IMG/VR virus record: IMGVR_UViG_3300036407_000005
Span: 1 to 26,839 of that record
Reading direction: 5' to 3' (one strand)
DNA length: 26,839 bases
Origin: a virus
A model generated the notes under the pieces. The model did no database searches. It saw nothing but the letters and a program-made list of their open reading frames with translations, and was not told the DNA's origin. Position numbers and translations under genes: made by a program. The stretch's first letter is position 1; every line of letters starts with the position of its first letter. Below are positions 1-9,511 of this stretch, in pieces.

Positions 1-349
1 CGTTAGATAGGTCTGACGGGTTCGCCTGCCCTGACCCGTAAGACTCATCTGACGGGTCACCCGTTTGGACGGCAGGGATCAGCGGAACCCGCAGCGTCGT
101 CCGCCCCGGCCGTGACACGCTCCGGAGCCAGCCCGCCGCTTCCACCTCGGCGACCCACTCAAACACCCGCTGCCGCGACCGCTTGGTCACCTTCTCCAAC
201 TCGGGCGCAGACGGCCGACAGTTGCTGCCGTCCGCGTTCATGTACGTGCAGAGCAGTAGCAGGAACGCCTTCAGGTGCCACGGCAGATCGGACTGGCGGA
301 CGGCGCGCTCCCACGCGAACCGTCCGACGCAGTCCTGTTGGGTGCTCAC
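1..349 (-). CDS. Winged-helix replication-type DNA-binding protein (partial, C-terminus off window)
   Basis: A GTG start at 349 follows an AAGGAG ribosome site and the frame stays open to the left edge, giving 116 visible residues and no stop. Residues about 18-90 look like the winged helix-turn-helix found at the N-terminus of phage replication-initiation proteins: a hydrophobic helix (AFLLLLCTYMNADG), then a recognition-helix segment (LEKVTKRSRQRVFEWV) and a wing (GWLRSVSRPGRTTLRV). After residue 95 the sequence turns polar (GDPSDESYGSGQANPSD), like an interdomain linker. It lies 35 bases downstream of the two-HTH gene in the early operon. By family, such proteins bind the origin and recruit helicase. 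That role is inference, because the C-terminal half is not visible. A transcriptional regulator remains possible. Confidence 0.72.
   Translation of the reverse strand, partial: MSTQQDCVGRFAWERAVRQSDLPWHLKAFLLLLCTYMNADGSNCRPSAPELEKVTKRSRQRVFEWVAEVEAAGWLRSVSRPGRTTLRVPLIPAVQTGDPSDESYGSGQANPSDLSN
12..64. repeat. Phased ACGGGT repeats, iteron-like, inside the replication-type gene
   Basis: The hexamer ACGGGT occurs at 16-21 and 52-57 and its complement ACCCGT at 34-39 and 59-64. The first three copies start exactly 18 bases apart in alternating orientation. Ten bases (TCTGACGGGT) are identical at 12-21 and 48-57, and 52-64 forms the palindrome ACGGGT-c-ACCCGT. They fall in the linker-coding part of the gene, as origin iterons do inside lambda gene O. 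An origin role is inference; the array may continue beyond the window. Confidence 0.4.
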
Positions 350-384
350 GGGTCTCCTTGTGGTGCTGGGTGGAGGACCGGCGG

Positions 385-924
385 TCAAGCCGCGGCCGTG
401 GTGATGTGGCGGCGAACGCCTTGGCGGTGAACGGTCCGATCGGACACGTGTGCACGGCGGGCGATGTCGCAGGTGCGCATGTTCAGCGCCAGCATTCGGC
501 GCACCGCCTCGCGGGCGTCGCACTGCCGAAGCTTCTCCCCGGCCGGCAGTTGTCCGCTGACCGCGAGCTCGACCATCTCCTCGTCGATGTCCTTCGACCA
601 GGCCGAGCCACGGGCACGAGCCTGCGAGTCGTCGATGTCGATGTCGTGCCACGCAAGCGTCGACGGCCAGCCAAGGTTCTTGGCGTGGGCGCGCATCGCC
701 TCCGCTATCGGTCCCTCGCGGTAGGTGCCGCTCAGCCGCTCGTACCGCAGCGCGACGTAGCGGGCGAGCGGCTGCTCCACCTTGGAGTGGACGTCGTCGA
801 GCAGTTCGCAAACCAGGCGCCGTGGAAGGTTGAACGCCTCAGCGATCTGGCCGTTCGTCCAGCCGATCGCGACGAGCGCGCGAAGGCGCCGCACCGTGCC
901 GAGGGAGCGCACAAGTTCCGTCAT
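385..924 (-). CDS. Helix-turn-helix protein with two HTH segments
   Basis: The protein has 179 residues, with an ATG at 924 whose ATGA overlaps the stop of the upstream gene. Residues 11-45 form one HTH-like segment (GWTNGQIAEAFNLPRRLVCELL), and residues 135-168 a second one (AREAVRRMLALNMRTCDIARRAHVSDRTVHR). Between them is a motif, AKNLGWPSTLAWHDIDIDD at 81-99, that I recognise from small HTH proteins frequent in the early regions of actinobacteriophages. The family's role is not established; it probably binds DNA as an early transcription or replication regulator. It sits in an unbroken chain of overlapping early genes directly before the replication-type gene. No enzymatic motif is visible. 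Confidence 0.75.
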   Translation of the reverse strand: MTELVRSLGTVRRLRALVAIGWTNGQIAEAFNLPRRLVCELLDDVHSKVEQPLARYVALRYERLSGTYREGPIAEAMRAHAKNLGWPSTLAWHDIDIDDSQARARGSAWSKDIDEEMVELAVSGQLPAGEKLRQCDAREAVRRMLALNMRTCDIARRAHVSDRTVHRQGVRRHITTAAA

Positions 925-1490
925 GCCGCACCTCCGTCGAGTGCCGCTCGGCCAGCGCGGGTCAACTGCCAGACGCCCTCGCGCACCGGGCCGCCGCTCC
1001 ACGTCGGCCGCACACGCACGAGTCCGGCCTCCATGAGGGCGGGCCACCAGTGGTCGTCGCGGCGAGAGAGCCCACGCGGATACCATCGCGTGCCCTCGAC
1101 TCCAGTCGCGACGACGAAGATCCGGCACTCATAGGCCGCCACCGCCCCGGCGCGGACGAGCTCAAGCAGCCGCCGCTGCGTGGGGTTCGGCCTGCCTCGC
1201 CATCGGTAGCGAGCGATGCGGCGTTCCTCGCGCTGCTTCGCCTCCGCACGGTGCTCGGCGCGATGCCGTTCCCACGCGCGGTTCACCCACTGCTCATCGC
1301 CGGTCGTCTTCCACGAGCAGCGGTCCCATGTGCACCGCGCACGCCACCGCTTCGGCCGTGCGGCCTCATGCTCAGCACGATGTGCTGCGACCGCCTCCTG
1401 CACGATGTCCTCGGTGCCGTCGAACACCCAGTCGCATTCGGGCGCACGACAGGTAGCGCGGTACTGCTGCCCCACAGCCGAGGCCGTCAT
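921..1490 (-). CDS. Double zinc-finger, winged-helix DNA-binding protein
   Basis: The protein has 189 residues; its ATG at 1490 overlaps the HNH gene stop (ATGA). Two potential metal sites with identical spacing are visible: C14-x4-C19-x17-H37-x3-H41 and C53-x4-C58-x17-H76-x3-H80. Each is a C2H2-like finger with a long helix carrying the HRAEH sequence. A basic stretch (about 82-100) follows. Then comes a winged-helix-like domain (about 102-185), whose helices RRLLELVRAGAVAAYE and WWPALMEAGLVRV precede a wing ending in GVWQLTRAGRAAL. The combination suggests sequence-specific DNA or RNA binding. The partner is unknown, and I do not recognise a named family for the full architecture. Confidence 0.72.
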   Translation of the reverse strand: MTASAVGQQYRATCRAPECDWVFDGTEDIVQEAVAAHRAEHEAARPKRWRARCTWDRCSWKTTGDEQWVNRAWERHRAEHRAEAKQREERRIARYRWRGRPNPTQRRLLELVRAGAVAAYECRIFVVATGVEGTRWYPRGLSRRDDHWWPALMEAGLVRVRPTWSGGPVREGVWQLTRAGRAALDGGAA

Positions 1491-1999
1491 GCCGCAGCCT
1501 CCAACATCGCCTGCAGCGGGTGCTGCTCGTGTGGCTCCCACGCAGTAGTGCCGGGCATCTGGTAGTCGAGCTTGCCGAAGCGGCGGACCGGCCACTCGTC
1601 GGCGCGAATGCCGTCTGGCACCAGCCAGCCGTCGATGCGGGCCTGCTTGCGGCTGGACTCCACCTCGTAGTGGCAGCCGCCGCGCGAAGTAGCGGAGCCA
1701 CACAGCAGCACCAGGTTCACCAGCGCGTGCGGGTCAGCCGTTGAGCCGCCCATGCCCCGCGGGTCCCGGTGATGCCGGGAGAACCAGCCGGTGATCAGGT
1801 GCCCGCAGCGCTGACACTGCGGCTGCCCGTACCGCTGGTCCCGCGCGTCGACGGCGTCCTTCACCGCATCCGGGATCACAGTGGACGCGCTGACCTTTCG
1901 GGCGGCAGCCCGGCCCGTCTGGCGCAGAAACGATGTGCGCTTGAGCGGCTCACCGCGCGGCATCGGCTTCATCCGCGGCGGCATGGCAGTGCGCTTCAT
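1487..1999 (-). CDS. HNH endonuclease
   Basis: The protein has 170 residues and an ATG at 1999 that overlaps the preceding stop (ATGA). The N-terminal 40 residues are very basic (KRTAMPPRMKPMPRGEPLKR), as expected for DNA contact. The HNH core spans about 60-112. It has a zinc pair C62-x2-C65, the catalytic/metal His pair H76-H77 (SRHHRDPRGMGG), N95 (LVNLVLLC), C100, and the closing C109-H110. All expected nuclease residues are present. It lies in the early operon between the ATPase-like and zinc-finger genes, so a role in replication, recombination or host DNA attack is likelier than the packaging role of HNH proteins encoded next to terminase. It is free-standing, with no intron or intein around it. 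Confidence 0.88.
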   Translation of the reverse strand: MKRTAMPPRMKPMPRGEPLKRTSFLRQTGRAAARKVSASTVIPDAVKDAVDARDQRYGQPQCQRCGHLITGWFSRHHRDPRGMGGSTADPHALVNLVLLCGSATSRGGCHYEVESSRKQARIDGWLVPDGIRADEWPVRRFGKLDYQMPGTTAWEPHEQHPLQAMLEAAA

Positions 2000-3204
2000 G
2001 CCACACCGACCTGTTCGCGTCCGGTCACGGTGGTGCCGGTCCTGCGCACGTGCACGGCGGCGCACTCAGCAAGCGCCTTGAGCGTGTAGCTCTCGCCAGC
2101 GGCTACGCCGAGCACCTCGCGATCCTGGTCGGACAGCAGGCCGGCGATGTCGGTGTCGAGGGCGCTCGAGGCGTCTGCGGTCATGCGGTCCCACAGGCTC
2201 TGCACCTGGTCGCGCTGGTGCAGGTGCAGCCACTCCTCGGTCAGGTCCGCGACGCGCTGGGCCTCGGAGGGCAGCGGCTCGGACGGGGCCGTCGGCTCGA
2301 CGGGCACGGCCGCTTTGGCGCTGGCTACGCGCCGCCCGGAGTCCGACGGGGGACGCACGGACTTCACCGCCTGCAGCACGCGCACCGGCTGCTCGCCAGG
2401 CAGCACCTGGTCGGCGTCGAAGGCGCGCGGCTCCGGTGCCTGCGCGGTCGCGCCGACGTCGGACCAGTCCCAGATCAACCGGGACAGGGTGAACTGTGAG
2501 CGCAGGGCGGCCCGCTCGGAACGGGTGAGGCGACGGTGCTGCGCGGTGTCGAGCACGAGGATCTCGGGTTCCTCGTCACGGGTCAGGCGGACCCACGCCG
2601 TCACGTCGAACCCAAGCTGGTCATTCGCCCGCAGCTGCCAGCGTCCGTCGAGCGCCCGGGTCTCCCGCGCGGTCATGACGACGGGACCCGGCCACGTGAG
2701 GATCTTGGCCATCAGCTGCTGGTGCCGCCGGTTCATGAGCTTCCACAGATCCGGGTGGATCTCGACGAGCACCTCGGAGGAGAACGCCGCGGCCGGGTCG
2801 AGGCCGCGGGCAGTGAGCGCGGCGGCGTGCTGGCGTCGGGCGCGCCGGTCGGCGGTGTCGTTGAACATCGCGTGCACGCCGCTCATCGACGTGACGATCA
2901 ACGCTGTCGGATAGCCCGCCACGGCCAGCGCCCGAGCCTCATCCCACGCCGCGCACACCTGCTCGTACATGTTGAGCCAGGTGCCGTCGTGCACGATGAC
3001 GTCGAAGTCGGCGCCGTCGGCCTTGGCGTAGAGGTCGGCGTTCGCGTCCGGTCCGACCTCCAGCCAGTACGCGCCGGCCAGCCGCGGGTCACAGGTGATC
3101 TCGGCTGCCGTCCACTCCGCTCCGGCGCCGGGTTCCGCGGAGAGCAGCACTCTGTGGTGCCATGAGACGTTCTTGTCGGGACGGCGTGTCTTCAGCTCGG
3201 CCAT
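1996..3204 (-). CDS. Sak4/RecA-like ATPase relative with degenerate Walker motifs
   Basis: The protein has 402 residues from the ATG at 3204; a GTG at 3207 is an alternative that would overlap the upstream stop. Residues 18-210 follow the layout of the RecA-like AAA proteins common in actinophage early regions (RVLLSAEPGAG, AYWLEVG, VIVHDGTW, EIHPDLWKLMNRRHQQLM, WPGPVVMTARE, GFDVTAWVRLTRDE). The P-loop reads EPGAGAEWT at 24-32, where relatives have GxGKS, so the Lys and Ser/Thr are missing (A29, E30). The Walker B strand reads ALIVTSMSG, with T105 where relatives have Asp. Residues about 250-402 are a linker and helical tail not typical of the short family members. The fold suggests a recombination or ssDNA-annealing partner, but ATP hydrolysis looks unlikely. 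Family assignment is from remembered patterns; the motif loss is seen directly. Confidence 0.72.
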   Translation of the reverse strand: MAELKTRRPDKNVSWHHRVLLSAEPGAGAEWTAAEITCDPRLAGAYWLEVGPDANADLYAKADGADFDVIVHDGTWLNMYEQVCAAWDEARALAVAGYPTALIVTSMSGVHAMFNDTADRRARRQHAAALTARGLDPAAAFSSEVLVEIHPDLWKLMNRRHQQLMAKILTWPGPVVMTARETRALDGRWQLRANDQLGFDVTAWVRLTRDEEPEILVLDTAQHRRLTRSERAALRSQFTLSRLIWDWSDVGATAQAPEPRAFDADQVLPGEQPVRVLQAVKSVRPPSDSGRRVASAKAAVPVEPTAPSEPLPSEAQRVADLTEEWLHLHQRDQVQSLWDRMTADASSALDTDIAGLLSDQDREVLGVAAGESYTLKALAECAAVHVRRTGTTVTGREQVGVA

Positions 3205-3830
3205 CACTCACCACCGGCCGCGATGACGTTGCCGTCGAGGTCGATGAAGCGGTCGAGGATGAGCGAGTCGATCGCGTCGAGGGCACCGGGGGTGAACTTC
3301 ACCAGCACGGTCGACTCCGGCTTGGTCACGACGATGCCGGGCGGTGCGTGCTCACCGATCTCGTTGCCCCAGCCCATCGGCTCCCCGGCCTGCTGGGACT
3401 TGAGCTCCAGCTCGTGCAGCACCCAGTCCTGGACTTCCTCGACGTCCTCGATCATGTAGCTGGCGTGCTTACGCAGCACCTGCAGCACGTCGTCGTCGGT
3501 GAAGCCCTCGCGCAGCTTGGTGCGCGGCCGCAGCTTGGCCGGGTAGTTCTCGCGCACCCACTCCTCGGCGGCCGTCCGGTCGACCACCTGCGCCTGGTAG
3601 TTCGTTTCGGATGCCGTGGCGTGCCACAGCTTCCGCTTCGGGTTGCGCGGGTCGTAGACCGGAACCTTGCCGCCGGCTCGCAGCGCCTTCACGACCTGGG
3701 CGCGCAACTCCGTCTCTTCCTGCTGCATGCGCATGCGGTTCAGCTGGACCACACCGAGTCGCAGCGCGAGCTTGTCCAGCTCGCTCAGTTCGTTGCCAGG
3801 TGCGACGGCGGCGGATTGCTCGACGGACAT
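3204..3830 (-). CDS. Early-region protein of unknown function, N-terminal coiled coil
   Basis: The protein has 208 residues. The ATG at 3830 is preceded by AGGAGTGACCC, a good ribosome site, which makes this the first gene after a 126-base gap in the early operon. Residues about 15-52 (ELSELDKLALRLGVVQLNRMRMQQEE onward) are predicted helical and coiled-coil-like. A basic patch, YDPRNPKRKLWH (59-70), follows. The acidic region around EDVEEVQDWVLHELELK (128-144) is helical, and the last 60 residues are mixed beta (GIVVTKPESTVLVKF). I see no catalytic motif. Its stop overlaps the start of the Sak4-like gene, so the two may work in the same DNA-processing complex; that is only a context argument. 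Confidence 0.7.
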   Translation of the reverse strand: MSVEQSAAVAPGNELSELDKLALRLGVVQLNRMRMQQEETELRAQVVKALRAGGKVPVYDPRNPKRKLWHATASETNYQAQVVDRTAAEEWVRENYPAKLRPRTKLREGFTDDDVLQVLRKHASYMIEDVEEVQDWVLHELELKSQQAGEPMGWGNEIGEHAPPGIVVTKPESTVLVKFTPGALDAIDSLILDRFIDLDGNVIAAGGE

Positions 3831-3956: not shown

Positions 3957-4406
3957 CTACGCGGATTCGGGGTGCTGCATGGGTTCGTCGCGGCCGTCGA
4001 GGTAGTCGACGATCGACTGCCCGCGGATCTCGACGCGGACGGTGCGTCCGTTGACGGCGGTGATCCGGTTCGCGGACACGAGGCGGCGGGCGGTCCAGTA
4101 GGACAGGCCGAGCAGGGTGGCGAGTTCCTGCAGTGTGTACTTCACGGCAACGTCAATGACCTGGCGGTAGTCAACGAGCGTGGAGGCGTTCCACAGGCCG
4201 GCGTCGACGGCAGCCGGTCCGGTGACGAGGTAACGACGCCCGGTGTGCCGGGCGGCCAGGGTTCCTCTGTGGATGCGGCGCCACAGTGCACCGGCCGACT
4301 CCCCTGTCAGCTTCGTCAGCTCGTCGATCGAGTAGACGACCGGCACGATCCGGACGAGTCTCTCTTCGGCGACGACCGCGAGGCGGGTGTGCTCCGTGGT
4401 CGTCAT
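3957..4406 (-). CDS. Tandem winged-helix (excisionase-like) regulatory protein
   Basis: The protein has 149 residues; its ATG at 4406 overlaps the stop of the XRE gene (ATGA). It carries two MerR/excisionase-type HTH units. Residues about 24-68 read VYSIDELTKLTG, then LWRRIHRGTL and RRYLVTGPAAVD. Residues about 89-137 read KYTLQELATLLGLSYWTARRLV, then ANRITAVNG and RGQSIVDYL. The second unit follows the usual excisionase layout more closely. Excisionases and excisionase-like regulators normally carry one such unit, so the duplication is unusual. Position as second gene of the early operon fits either a recombination directionality factor for the integrase or an early regulator. Which of the two cannot be decided from sequence. 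Confidence 0.75.
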   Translation of the reverse strand: MTTTEHTRLAVVAEERLVRIVPVVYSIDELTKLTGESAGALWRRIHRGTLAARHTGRRYLVTGPAAVDAGLWNASTLVDYRQVIDVAVKYTLQELATLLGLSYWTARRLVSANRITAVNGRTVRVEIRGQSIVDYLDGRDEPMQHPESA

Positions 4407-4771
4407 GCCGGCACCTGTACGAGCTGCTGCAGCTGCTCGCGCTTGGCCTTGATCTCCTCGAACGCGCTGGCGACGGTCTCCAGCCGAGTGGACAGCACGC
4501 TGACCAAGCCGTCGATCTCGGTGAGCATCTCCAACGGGTCCGGCGGCGACGTGGTGAACGGCACATCGGCCCGCAGCTCGTCGAACGGGACGCCGAGAAC
4601 ACGAGCGAGGGCGGCGATGGTGTCTTCGGACGGGCGGCGGTAGCCGCGGGCGTAGGCGCTGACGGACTGCCTGCTGATTCCGAGACGTGCAGCAAGATCG
4701 GTGTAGCTGATGCCGGTCCGGCGCACCGCGCGCTTCAGGCTCGGCCACGGCTGTGGGGGTGCGTTCGTCAT
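4403..4771 (-). CDS. XRE-family regulator, first gene of the early operon (Cro-like position)
   Basis: The protein has 122 residues from the ATG at 4771. Residues about 11-66 are a canonical lambda-repressor-type HTH (LKRAVRRTGISYTDLAARLG, then ISRQSVSAYARGYRRPSEDTIAALARVLGVPFDEL). Residues about 80-118 are a heptad-rich helix (EMLTEIDGLVSVLSTRLETV onward), likely for oligomerisation. It is transcribed away from the second XRE gene at 4883, so the pair forms a genetic switch. Because it heads the leftward early genes it occupies the Cro position. The predicted -10 box lies six bases before the ATG, which suggests a leaderless mRNA. The role as Cro rather than the main repressor is inferred from position and orientation. 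Confidence 0.82.
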   Translation of the reverse strand: MTNAPPQPWPSLKRAVRRTGISYTDLAARLGISRQSVSAYARGYRRPSEDTIAALARVLGVPFDELRADVPFTTSPPDPLEMLTEIDGLVSVLSTRLETVASAFEEIKAKREQLQQLVQVPA

Positions 4772-4882: not shown

Positions 4883-5410
4883 ATGACTGTCGGGGAGCGC
4901 GACCCTGGCACGTGGCAGGTTGGGCCCGTGCTCGAGAGCCAGCGGAAGAAGCTCGGCCTCTCACTTGATCAAGTTGCCGAGCGCGCCAGCATCGGCCGCG
5001 CAACGGTGCGGTACTACGAGACCGGCTACCGCGCCGACAACAAGGCCCCGATCAACCCCACCGTCAAAGTCCTCCGGCCGCTGGCCGAGGCCCTCGAACT
5101 CAACGTCGACGACGTGCTGGAGCTTGCCAGGATCCAGCCGGCGCGACGGATGACCGATCAGGAAGCCGCCGCCGAGGTGGCACGCCGGTCATCTCACCTC
5201 GCCGACCGCATCGCGCTGCTGGACCCGGCGTTCCGCAGCGCCATCGAAACGATCGTCGACGAGCACCTCAAGGCGCAGGGCTACGTGGACGGCGGGACGG
5301 CGACGATGAAGTCGGCCGCCCCGGCCGAGAGCCGAACTGCTCCGGCCTTCGGCCCGGGCGAGCCGCCGTTGGGAGAGCCTGCGAAGGACGGGGCACCGTC
5401 GCAGAGCTAG
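4883..5410 (+). CDS. XRE-family immunity repressor (predicted)
   Basis: The protein has 175 residues from the ATG at 4883; in-frame ATGs at 4871 and 4874 are alternatives, and no start has a well-placed ribosome site. Residues about 14-78 form an XRE HTH (VLESQRKKLGLSLDQVAERA, then IGRATVRYYETGYRADNK and a helix ending in LNVDDVLEL). Residues about 90-135 are helical (QEAAAEVARRSSHLADRIAL, then FRSAIETIVDEHLKAQGY) and may mediate dimerisation. The last 35 residues are Pro/Ala-rich and probably disordered. There is no LexA-type peptidase domain, so RecA-stimulated self-cleavage is not expected. It points toward the integrase and away from the early operon, the usual place of the lysogeny repressor. 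The repressor role is inferred from context. Confidence 0.78.
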   Translation: MTVGERDPGTWQVGPVLESQRKKLGLSLDQVAERASIGRATVRYYETGYRADNKAPINPTVKVLRPLAEALELNVDDVLELARIQPARRMTDQEAAAEVARRSSHLADRIALLDPAFRSAIETIVDEHLKAQGYVDGGTATMKSAAPAESRTAPAFGPGEPPLGEPAKDGAPSQS

Positions 5411-6202: not shown

Positions 6203-7846
6203 ATGGCGCGGCCACCGCTCGGGATCGGCGAGCACGGCGAGATCAACACCAGCCGCCTGAGTCCTGAGGGCGCGGTCCCGGAGAAGTGGCGCGCCTACTG
6301 CCTCTACCGCGGCAAGGACGGCAAGACCTCCAAGCCCGAGCGCCGCGGTGAGGGACGCACCGCCGAGCAGGCGCAGAAGGCCGCGATCGCCAACCTCAAG
6401 AAGCACCTCCGCGAACTCGCCGGCGACAACACCACCAAGCTCGCGCGCAGCACTCGCCTGGCCAAGGCCATCGAGGTCTTCCTCGAGGACAACATCAAGA
6501 AGCGCCGCCTGGGCACCACCTACGACGAGTACCGCCGCTGGGCCAACGCGCGCATCATCCCCGACATCGGTGACCTCCGGCTCTCCGAGTGCACCCCCGG
6601 TCGCCTGCAGGCCTACTTCGACGAACTGGCCGAGAAGCCCAGCGCGCGCACCGGCAAACCGCTGTCCGCGAACTCGCGTCGCGGCATCCGCAAGGTCCTC
6701 AGCGGCGCCATGAAGGTCGCCGTCCGGGACGGCGCCCTCACTTCCAACCCGGTCGACTCCCTCGAGGAGATCGAGGGGGGTACGAAGAGGAAGACCCGCG
6801 GCTTCGACGGCGCCACCGCCGCCGTGTTCCTCGAACGCCTCGACAACGACCGGGTCGCCGTGCGCTTCGGCCACAACCTGTTGATCAAGTTCATGTTCCA
6901 CACCGGAACCCGAGTCGGTGAAGCCATCGCGGTCCGGTGGGGCGATGTCAACCTCAGCGACACATCCATCGAGCTCGACCACCCCATCTTCGGTCGATGG
7001 GTCATCCCGCCTCGCAGCATCTGGATCAACGGAAACCTGGTCCGCATCACCGGCCAAGGAGTCGTGCGACACCACGGCAAGACCGACGGCTCCGTCGACA
7101 TCATCGAGATGACCCCCACGCTGCGAGCCATGCTCACCGCCATCCGGCCCGTCGACGCACAGCCCGACGATCCGGTCTTCCCCTCCGCTACCGGCGGGCA
7201 CCGCGCCCCCGACGCCACCCAGACCATCGTCCGGAGACTCCGCAAGCGCATCGGCTTTCCGGAGTTCACCACGCACTTCGGACGCCGCACCTACGCGACC
7301 GCACTCGACGCGGCCGGGCACACCAGCCGGCAGGTCGCCGACGCGCTGCGCAAGACGTCCATCGCGGACACGCAGTCGGCGTACATGGTGCGCGGCCTCG
7401 CCAACCCGGCGGCGGCATCAGCGATCGAGCAGCACTACCGACCCAGCTCCACGAACGACACTACGGCCGTCCAGCCAGCTGGCTACGCGGTCATGCAGCC
7501 ACTGCAGCTGCCTCCGGCAACCGTCATCGACCCGGACCGCGGGCCGGTGACCCGGTTCTCGATCCTCGGTGCGCGCCACGGCAACCGCTGGATGTTCACG
7601 GCGGTACCGGAAGGCGGCACGCCGTTCCCGGAACTGGGCAAAATCTGGACAACAGAGGAGACCGCAGGCCAGGCCGCCGCAGCCCTTGCGGCCGAAGCGT
7701 GGGTGCGCGCTGAACTCGACGAGATCGGCGCCGAGCTCAGCACGATCCAGGACATGACCAGCAGCTACCCGGAGGAACAGCGCCGGTACTCGACGTGGAC
7801 GATCTACGAGCTGCGGCAGCAGCCTGACGGGGATGCTGTCGCCTGA
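6203..7846 (+). CDS. int: Tyrosine-type site-specific integrase with C-terminal extension
   Basis: The protein has 547 residues; the ATG at 6203 follows GGGGAGG. Residues about 27-70 resemble the arm-binding region and 80-180 the SAM-like core-binding domain (AKAIEVFLEDNI, GDLRLSECTPGRLQAYF, SANSRRGIRKVLSGAMKVAV, DGALTSNPV). The catalytic domain spans about 200-410: R237 (HTGTRVGEA), K293 (HHGKTDG), H358-x-x-R361 (THFGRRTYAT) and nucleophile Y394 (TQSAYMVRG). The position where relatives have LGH reads LRK, so the third conserved His is Lys384. Residues 415-547 are an extension beyond the usual end, with a mixed beta segment and a helix (AGQAAAALAAEAWVRAELDE); I know no family for it. It integrates and, with a directionality factor, excises the phage genome. 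It converges on the lysis operon across a strong terminator. Confidence 0.93.
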   Translation: MARPPLGIGEHGEINTSRLSPEGAVPEKWRAYCLYRGKDGKTSKPERRGEGRTAEQAQKAAIANLKKHLRELAGDNTTKLARSTRLAKAIEVFLEDNIKKRRLGTTYDEYRRWANARIIPDIGDLRLSECTPGRLQAYFDELAEKPSARTGKPLSANSRRGIRKVLSGAMKVAVRDGALTSNPVDSLEEIEGGTKRKTRGFDGATAAVFLERLDNDRVAVRFGHNLLIKFMFHTGTRVGEAIAVRWGDVNLSDTSIELDHPIFGRWVIPPRSIWINGNLVRITGQGVVRHHGKTDGSVDIIEMTPTLRAMLTAIRPVDAQPDDPVFPSATGGHRAPDATQTIVRRLRKRIGFPEFTTHFGRRTYATALDAAGHTSRQVADALRKTSIADTQSAYMVRGLANPAAASAIEQHYRPSSTNDTTAVQPAGYAVMQPLQLPPATVIDPDRGPVTRFSILGARHGNRWMFTAVPEGGTPFPELGKIWTTEETAGQAAAALAAEAWVRAELDEIGAELSTIQDMTSSYPEEQRRYSTWTIYELRQQPDGDAVA

Positions 7847-8316: not shown

Positions 8317-9209
8317 CAGGCCACCACCCGCAGGCGCTCGCCGAGCCGGTCGACGATCGCCTCGGCCTGCTCCTCGTTGTCGGCGCCCAACGCGTCGCCG
8401 AGCACGTCCTTGAGGGCTGGCAGCACGACCGAGCTGATCGTCTCGCGCGTCGCTTGGCGCACGGACTCGTCGACCCGAGCCATGACGGCGTCCGCGTCGA
8501 GACCCTCGCTCACTGCCGCGAGGATCGCGGACAGCATCGCCGGAACCGTCTTGTACAGGTCAGAGGTCCAGAAGTACGTGTCACCGATGACACGCGCCGC
8601 TTCCTGCGTTTCCGCATACTCCCGGTTGGCCGGGGAGGTCACCCGGATCCTGTCGGTGAAAGCCACGTCGTCCTCCTTCGTCAGAGTCCCGCCGCCGGCG
8701 GTGATGCGGCCGAGAGCCGCGTACAGGTTTCTTCCGGGACACGACGTCGCGAAGACGTCGCGGTGCCCGCCGGTTACGCGGCTCGGCAGACCTGCGGTCC
8801 GCCACTCCCCGAGGACGAGGCAGGCGGTGTTGAGCGCGGCCGAGGTCGGCATGTCCTCTTCGAAGTTGCCGACGAAGCAGATGGCCCGTGCGCTGTCGTT
8901 GCGCTGGTAGGTGTGTGCGCCGCGCCGGTTGAGAGAGTGGCCCTGGTAGGCCCTGCCGGACGGGAAGACGATCACGGTGTACGAGATGCCCTGACCGAAG
9001 CTGTTCTGGCCGATGGACTCCAGCAGACGCATGTGTTCGAGCTCCTGCGCCACCGTGGCGTTTGCGCCACCAGGCACTCGGGTGACCGAGTGGTGGATGT
9101 AGATGTCACGCCACGCGCTAGTGCCGATGATGATCGGGCGCCCCTGAGCGTCCGTTGCACCGTCACTGTGTCTGGGTCCCCACGATGACCGTGGGGCGAT
9201 GACGCTCAT
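8316..9209 (-). CDS. Endolysin, N-acetylmuramoyl-L-alanine amidase (PGRP/Amidase_2 type)
   Basis: The protein has 297 residues; the ATG at 9209 follows GTAGGAGGGACC. Residues about 1-172 are a zinc amidase of the PGRP fold: first ligand in DIYIHHSVT (H39 or H40), Y77 (GISYTVIVFPSGRAYQGH), H149 (GGHRDV) and C157 (SCPG). It would cut the bond between MurNAc and the stem peptide. The usual RSSWGPR opening is at 7-13. Residues 180-297 contain no LysM, PG-binding-1 or SH3 repeat that I recognise; they look helical and acidic (TDRIRV, then AMLSAILAAVSEGLDADAVM). There is no signal peptide, so export depends on the holin. It is third in the lysis cassette, between a membrane protein and the holin. 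Confidence 0.9.
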   Translation of the reverse strand: MSVIAPRSSWGPRHSDGATDAQGRPIIIGTSAWRDIYIHHSVTRVPGGANATVAQELEHMRLLESIGQNSFGQGISYTVIVFPSGRAYQGHSLNRRGAHTYQRNDSARAICFVGNFEEDMPTSAALNTACLVLGEWRTAGLPSRVTGGHRDVFATSCPGRNLYAALGRITAGGGTLTKEDDVAFTDRIRVTSPANREYAETQEAARVIGDTYFWTSDLYKTVPAMLSAILAAVSEGLDADAVMARVDESVRQATRETISSVVLPALKDVLGDALGADNEEQAEAIVDRLGERLRVVA

Positions 9210-9217
9210 GGTCCCTC

Positions 9218-9511
9218 CTACAAGGACTCGTCCCGGTTGTGCGGCTGCTTCGACTGCGGGGGCTCCGACGGCAGCGGGTCGAGCTCGATGCCGGCGGCTG
9301 CTGCCTTGCGGATCTGTTTCACGGCCCACGTCCACAGCACGGCCAGGTCGCGCCGTAGGGCGTTGATGTCGGCTTGCTGGTCGTCGATGTAGATCCGCTG
9401 GTGTTCGCTGGTGGACAGGCGTCCCTTGCGGCGGTCGTTCCAGATCGCTCCCGCGGCCCCGAGAATGGAGACGACCGGGACCGCGATCGCGCCGATTTCC
9501 AGTGGCGTCAT
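9218..9511 (-). CDS. Small lysis-cassette membrane protein, one N-terminal helix
   Basis: The protein has 97 residues; its ATG overlaps the upstream stop (ATGA) and its stop lies eight bases before the amidase start. Residues about 4-24 form one membrane helix (LEIGAIAVPVVSILGAAGAIW). Then come a basic turn (NDRRKGR) and a helical region at about 35-72 (EHQRIYIDDQQADINALRRD, then LAVLWTWAVKQIRKAAA) that could be a coiled coil. The Pro-rich tail ends KQPHNRDESL. The layout resembles spanin-like or accessory holin proteins, but the host group has no classical outer membrane. A second holin or a lysis regulator is as likely. Confidence 0.68.
   Translation of the reverse strand: MTPLEIGAIAVPVVSILGAAGAIWNDRRKGRLSTSEHQRIYIDDQQADINALRRDLAVLWTWAVKQIRKAAAAGIELDPLPSEPPQSKQPHNRDESL

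Follow-up and report, generated by a model that had tools for sequence, protein, structure and literature searches.

A conserved branch of an actinophage RecA-like protein family that appears to have lost its ATP site

The window analysed in this study is the 26,839-nt stretch from position 1 to 26,839 of the viral record IMGVR_UViG_3300036407_000005. The record is linear and incomplete (26.8 kb), comes from a siphophage or prophage, and carries portal, protease, major capsid, major tail, tape measure, integrase and repressor genes. An early operon on the minus strand has the order HTH regulator, excisionase-like gene, partner gene (208 aa), ATP-less RecA-like gene, HNH gene, small genes and replication initiator. 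The RecA-like open reading frame, for which the sequence-only reading had given no strand, lies on the minus strand; it begins with an ATG at 3204-3202, ends with a stop at 1998-1996 and encodes 402 amino acids. Its overlaps with the neighbouring genes are intact, TGATG with the upstream gene and ATGA with the downstream HNH gene. The features of the gene and of its surroundings are listed here.

1996..3204, minus strand: ATP-site-less RecA-like protein, 402 aa, phrog_1366 family (PHROGs match, AlphaFold2, hhalign)
3115..3138, minus strand: degenerate Walker A, residues 23-30, AEPGAGAE, where canonical relatives have G-x4-G-K-[ST] (family alignment, codons)
3025..3060, minus strand: end of strand 2, residues 49-60, EVGPDANADLYA, against DLGEGAADEYG in canonical relatives, both conserved Glu lost (alignment)
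2884..2907, minus strand: degenerate Walker B strand, residues 100-107, TALIVTSM, with Asp replaced by T105 (alignment)
2746..2856, minus strand: expected counterpart of RecA DNA loop L1, residues 117-153, ADRRARR...RGLDPAAAFSSE (conservation; putative match to RecA)
2038..2265, minus strand: C-terminal helical domain, residues 314-389 (AlphaFold2)
3204..3830, minus strand: upstream overlapping partner gene, 208 aa, related to phrog_5168 (homology)
1487..1999, minus strand: downstream overlapping HNH endonuclease gene, phrog_740 (homology)
3957..4406, minus strand: excisionase/MerR-like DNA-binding gene at the operon head (annotation)
4403..4771, minus strand: HTH regulator (annotation)
4883..5410, plus strand: divergent HTH repressor-like regulator (annotation)
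6203..7846, plus strand: integrase, phrog_1 (annotation)
2..811, minus strand: replication-initiation gene (HTH_36/O-like), cut by the window end, start probably near 349 (annotation)

The sequence-only reading held that A29 and E30 replace the P-loop Lys and Ser/Thr and that T105 replaces the Walker B Asp. The family alignment places these residues in the same columns, the re-read codons of residues 23-30 (GCG GAA CCC GGC GCC GGA GCG GAG) give AEPGAGAE, and the Walker B position reads IVTSM. Of 153 distinct homologues, 139 have Lys in the P-loop column and 144 have Asp in the Walker B column; thus, the window protein is far from the family norm. The two Glu residues that follow strand 2 (E in 143/153 and 136/153 distinct homologues) are replaced by P52 and L58. 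We infer that the Glu after strand 2 corresponds to the catalytic Glu of RecA, and one of the two lost residues is probably the catalytic one. No GK[ST] or G-x4-GK[ST] was present anywhere in the window protein, which leaves no alternative P-loop elsewhere. To restore a canonical codon, A29 and E30 would each have to undergo two or more base changes, and a homologue with 65% identity from another metagenome has the same loss; for these reasons, sequencing error is excluded. The canonical site belongs to other clades, and the window protein falls in a clade of seven with the loss.

The window protein matches phrog_1366 (E=1.5e-17, residues 4-257), a group of actinophage proteins annotated in the database as 'RecA-like DNA recombinase' or 'ASCE ATPase', some of which match a Sak4 profile. 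The window protein matched no Pfam family, AAA_24 included, and gave no direct match to the Sak4-like phrog_124, phrog_1366 being its only match there. Among the aligned relatives, 75 of 87 match AAA_24 and 29 of 87 match phrog_124, the Sak4-like ssDNA annealing protein. A tblastn search identified 147 phage records, almost all from actinophages and mostly annotated RecA-like DNA recombinase, with about 25-35% identity over as much as residues 1-302. Identity did not exceed 36% among the matches listed from this phage collection, which suggests that the collection does not contain the ATP-less clade. When this clade was compared with canonical members by hhalign, the probability was 100% over the core (E=1.6e-60) and the P-loop and Walker B segments were aligned without gaps. 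The L2-like hairpin of the ATP-less form is shorter than in canonical relatives.

Members of the clade are found in Pseudonocardiaceae chromosomes and in phage contigs. A scan of viral contigs with the single window protein gave no match and family-aware alignments were needed. A five-row profile identified full-length L195 (65% identity), L196, L197 and L010 in viral contigs, and a two-row profile identified L153, L154 and L155 in 390 Pseudonocardiaceae genomes. L196, an IMG/VR record, encodes the same protein as L155 (100% identical), which is located at G372:C1:6597247-6598386 in a chromosome of 8,248,144 bases. The clade contains at least seven distinct versions, the window protein and six relatives, which are 44-65% identical. 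The genomes sampled from Micromonosporaceae and from the order to which L125 belongs yielded no members. C-terminal-only matches in Pseudonocardiaceae genomes (L165-L175) were rejected; seven belong to a family of membrane proteins that is unrelated, and the others appear to be chance matches.

The seven members have seven distinct loops: AEPGAGAEW, GEPGTDAAW, GEAGTDAAW, GEPGTDPAE, GDESGIVDAAW, GEAGAGLAW and GLDGTDAPW. The P-loop Lys and Ser/Thr are missing in all seven and the Walker B Asp is missing in six, being kept only in L155. With regard to whether A29, E30 and T105 are conserved as such, which had been raised from the window alone, the canonical residues are absent throughout the clade but the replacements themselves are not conserved. 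In a tree calculated with the motif columns left out (a short search with SH-aLRT support only), the seven members form one group with a support of 99, which L198 and L199 join at 100. These two are intermediates whose loop is of the GxxGxRKS type and in which the Walker B Asp is kept, and they are sister to the ATP-less clade; the clade and the intermediates together are nested next to the canonical L200, L201, L219 and L086. Their position and loops indicate that the ATP site was lost stepwise. The ATP-less clade has a long stem branch and evolves fast.

Other members of the family also have altered ATP sites. Among the 153 homologues, the P-loop Lys is missing from the window clade, from L125 and L127 (with L130, which is the L127 gene reached by another search), and from L185-L187 and L208, in which Lys is replaced by Arg. 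L125 (4947-6188) and L127 (4950-6191), from bacterial chromosomes of Nonomuraea turkmeniaca and Planomonospora, form a separate clade of the same family that has neither an intact Walker A (the site reads GGNEDGGT / GGMEDGGA) nor the Walker B Asp. This clade appears to have lost its ATP site independently of the window clade; its use to scan viral contigs found no relatives. L185, L186 and L187 (Micromonosporaceae) and L208 retain the Walker B Asp beside the Arg-containing loop (GETGSGRS; EDKSGRS) and likely represent a third kind of altered ATP site. In addition, a related gene in one Pseudonocardiaceae genome (L161 and L174, genome G628) has the loop GPAGSRKSG, which is like that of the intermediates, and appears to be split by a frameshift into two open reading frames.

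The clade members are all encoded by open, full-length reading frames of 387-402 aa with many invariant columns. NG86 dN/dS was about 0.28 for the closest pair, indicating purifying selection, and about 0.5-0.8 for distant pairs, in which dS is near saturation. The intact reading frames, the value for the closest pair and the conserved operon position agree with the earlier statement that the gene is not a decaying pseudogene, and the sequences identify the ATP-less form as a maintained protein, neither error nor pseudogene. Constraint was compared as mean identity within the ATP-less clade and within 18 canonical proteins of similar divergence. It is lower in the clade at the P-loop (0.51 vs 0.69) and at the strand-2/Glu segment (0.37 vs 0.73), which is the least conserved segment of the core. 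It is higher in the clade at residues 109-126 (0.56 vs 0.42), the L1-side loop 127-153 (0.59 vs 0.33), HDGTW (0.79 vs 0.65), strand 5 (0.84 vs 0.68) and residues 202-216 (0.73 vs 0.40). This shift is what a protein freed from ATP binding yet still used otherwise would be expected to show.

Sequence searches of the PDB found nothing meaningful, whether the query was the single protein or the family profile, and folds were compared for this reason. An AlphaFold2 model of the window protein built on 79 sequences had a pLDDT of 89.2 and a pTM of 0.68, with the core blocks mostly at 95-98, the P-loop region included. Foldseek against the PDB placed human BCDX2/RAD51-paralogue complexes at the top (E=6e-7, probability 1.00), with Dmc1, RAD51, RecA and secretion ATPases at lower ranks, and against viral models the matches included actinophage RecA-like recombinases. 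Thus, the RecA-like core described in the sequence-only reading is retained in the predicted structure. The net charge of the core is not positive (-2 to -8), and canonical members are alike in this. The Walker B strand of the clade stays hydrophobic; in Rad51 paralogues this strand makes subunit contacts (PMC4518479).

A partner-family profile found the partner directly upstream, with overlapping codons, in all seven clade members and at many canonical loci. The window partner is homologous to the gene upstream of L010 (37% identity) and distantly related to phrog_5168, a member of which adjoins the canonical gene in phage GodPhather and also matches Mu Gam-like end protection (E=3.4e-9). The model of the partner (pLDDT 85) had no credible match in the PDB, so the term 'Gam-like' derives only from the PHROGs links of its relatives. 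An HNH gene is likewise downstream in L195 and L192. No match to SSB (PF00436) was obtained in either the window or the L010 contig, both of which are possibly fragments. A search of the L010 contig (58 kb) and of the genomes of L125 and L127 for a canonical paralogue that could complement the protein gave none. The three Pseudonocardiaceae genomes had one family match each, with few candidates scored. In the L192 prophage, the pair formed by the partner and the ATP-less RecA-like gene is immediately preceded by a DnaQ/polymerase-exonuclease-like gene (8698-9429), and phrog_2045 proteins are encoded downstream in two clade phages (L195:8784-9524 and L191:15754-16863).

The protein can be compared with several known systems. 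It is homologous to phrog_1366 proteins over residues 1-257, has a RecA core as they do, and is encoded at the same operon position, next to a Gam-like-related gene and in many cases an HNH gene. However, canonical members keep GxEK[SA]GK[ST], GEGAADEY and VIDSM, and the ATP-less clade has lost all of these. With Sak4 (phrog_124; HK620, PA73) it shares a RecA core without the RecA C-terminal DNA-binding domain and a place in the phage early recombination region. Sak4 usually adjoins an SSB, which was not seen in the possibly fragmentary records examined here, and needs ATP in vitro for ssDNA binding and annealing, whereas the window protein has no ATP site. Staphylococcal 80alpha Sak is a phage annealing protein that has no Walker motifs and anneals without ATP (PMC5499656), but its fold is of the Rad52 superfamily and not of RecA. 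In BcsE, the Walker A of a predicted RecA-like domain is degenerate, yet oligomerisation is retained (PMC7439463). By sequence and model, the window protein is like a RecA-core phage recombinase in fold and context but does not have the defining ATPase features, and a Sak4-type ATPase is therefore not the right class for it. The protein represents a new, conserved ATP-less branch of a known actinophage RecA-like family. The residue losses described in the sequence-only reading are thus confirmed, and its main interpretation is supported.

ATP is thought to switch RecA-fold proteins, Sak4 included, into gripping single-stranded DNA. A clade that has the fold and the operon slot but in which the switch is erased is a natural separation-of-function experiment. 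It makes testable which activities of a RecA core need nucleotide, and the surviving intermediates allow the loss of the ATP site to be traced. Such proteins are also easily mislabelled 'ATPase' in annotated databases.

The explanation we favour, to which we give about even chances, is a stable RecA-core (Sak4-like) branch that does not bind nucleotide and that would act as a DNA-binding, annealing or scaffold factor without the use of ATP. The protein would keep the family job, which is to bind ssDNA and help with annealing or with sheltering phage ends or replication intermediates. Its DNA-competent state may be constitutive, or it may be a fixed scaffold subunit, in place of ATP switching. 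The upstream neighbour, probably a physical partner, would protect or channel DNA ends. The pair has a fixed place in an early module that also contains HNH nuclease and replication genes. Several precedents are of interest here. Archaeal RadB and aRadC bind ssDNA without ATP, and recombineering by PA73 Sak4 K30A, a Walker A mutant, was still twofold above background (PMC5928155). On the other hand, HK620 Sak4 depends strictly on ATP to bind and to anneal ssDNA (PMC5928155), and by analogy the loss of the site could mean the loss of DNA binding. The lack of an SSB match in two possibly fragmentary records, the core without net positive charge and the shorter L2-like hairpin also count against this explanation. 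A more specific proposal, which we regard as tentative and rather less probable than the general one, is that a recombinase with a RecA fold became, in one phage lineage, an annealase or DNA scaffold that works free of ATP, through the series G-x4-GK[ST] to GxxGxRKS to GExGTDAAW, with the recombinase slot kept and the same loss occurring separately in the Nonomuraea/Planomonospora clade.

The main rival is that the protein acts on a host protein and not on DNA. Shaped like RecA, it would serve as a mediator, filament cap or decoy; by binding the RecA of the host, or some other protein with this fold, it would modulate recombination or the SOS response, by analogy with the ATPase-poor Rad51 paralogues that act on eukaryotic Rad51. 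The conservation of surface segments away from the ATP site agrees with this, as does the rank of the human RAD51 paralogues as top structural matches. RAD51D and XRCC2 in BCDX2 are RecA folds in which the catalytic Glu is missing and ATP is not hydrolysed (PMC7614784), and the best solved structural neighbours of the window protein are chains of such complexes. Yet both have intact Walker A/B residues and still bind ATP (PMC7614784), which is not expected here. Yeast Psy3-Csm2 (Shu complex) is a dimer with a RecA/Rad51 fold diverged from the canonical ATPase; it works in recombination and has been proposed to bind the Rad51 filament end (PMC6440994). It is eukaryotic, has no detectable sequence relationship to the window protein and works with Rad51, so it is a mechanistic precedent only. 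HK620 Sak4 had no effect on RecA strand exchange (PMC5928155), and the gene is in the canonical phage recombinase slot and not in a separate anti-host locus. We consider action on a host protein unlikely. Of the roles named in the sequence-only reading, a structural recombination cofactor or ssDNA binder would fit the conserved context and the constraint pattern better than a decoy.

The remaining alternatives seem less probable still. Nucleotide could be bound and left unhydrolysed by an unorthodox pocket (a GExGTDAAW-type loop) or through residues of a neighbouring subunit. The G-E-[PA]-G-T-D pattern does recur in several members and the P-loop region is modelled at high confidence, but Lys, Ser/Thr and both Glu are gone, as is the Walker B Asp in all but L155, and the strand-2/Glu segment is the poorest in conservation. 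The clade has no invariant Lys and L155 contains a single Lys in 393 aa; thus, a residual pocket is quite improbable. A slightly smaller chance is given to a purely structural role, in which the protein would have no DNA activity of its own and would only form a fixed complex together with the Gam-like-related protein encoded upstream. The overlapping gene pair in 7/7 members would suit such a complex, although canonical members with an ATP site show the same pairing, so the ATP-less form is not singled out by it, and the DNA-loop side is conserved. Lastly, the clade could be in early decay, with function lost and the gene unpurged through synteny or weak selection. The long stem branch, the fast evolution and the omega of the distant pairs, where dS is saturated, might be read in this way. 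We judge it very improbable given seven distinct full-length reading frames, the low omega of the closest pair, the many invariant columns and the conserved overlaps and partner.

Beyond the core, a linker at about residues 270-312 is of low confidence or unstructured in the AlphaFold2 model, and the helical domain at 314-389 is confident. The 'extra C-terminal 150 residues' of the sequence-only reading are not special, since canonical homologues are mostly 320-550 aa long with similar tails. The motif [LFW][DN]ADQ-x-[ML]-x2-E occurs just past the core, at 2386-2433 of the window (residues 258-273). It is common to the ATP-less clade, the intermediates and the canonical sisters (L198-L201 and L219) and is possibly a protein-interaction site.
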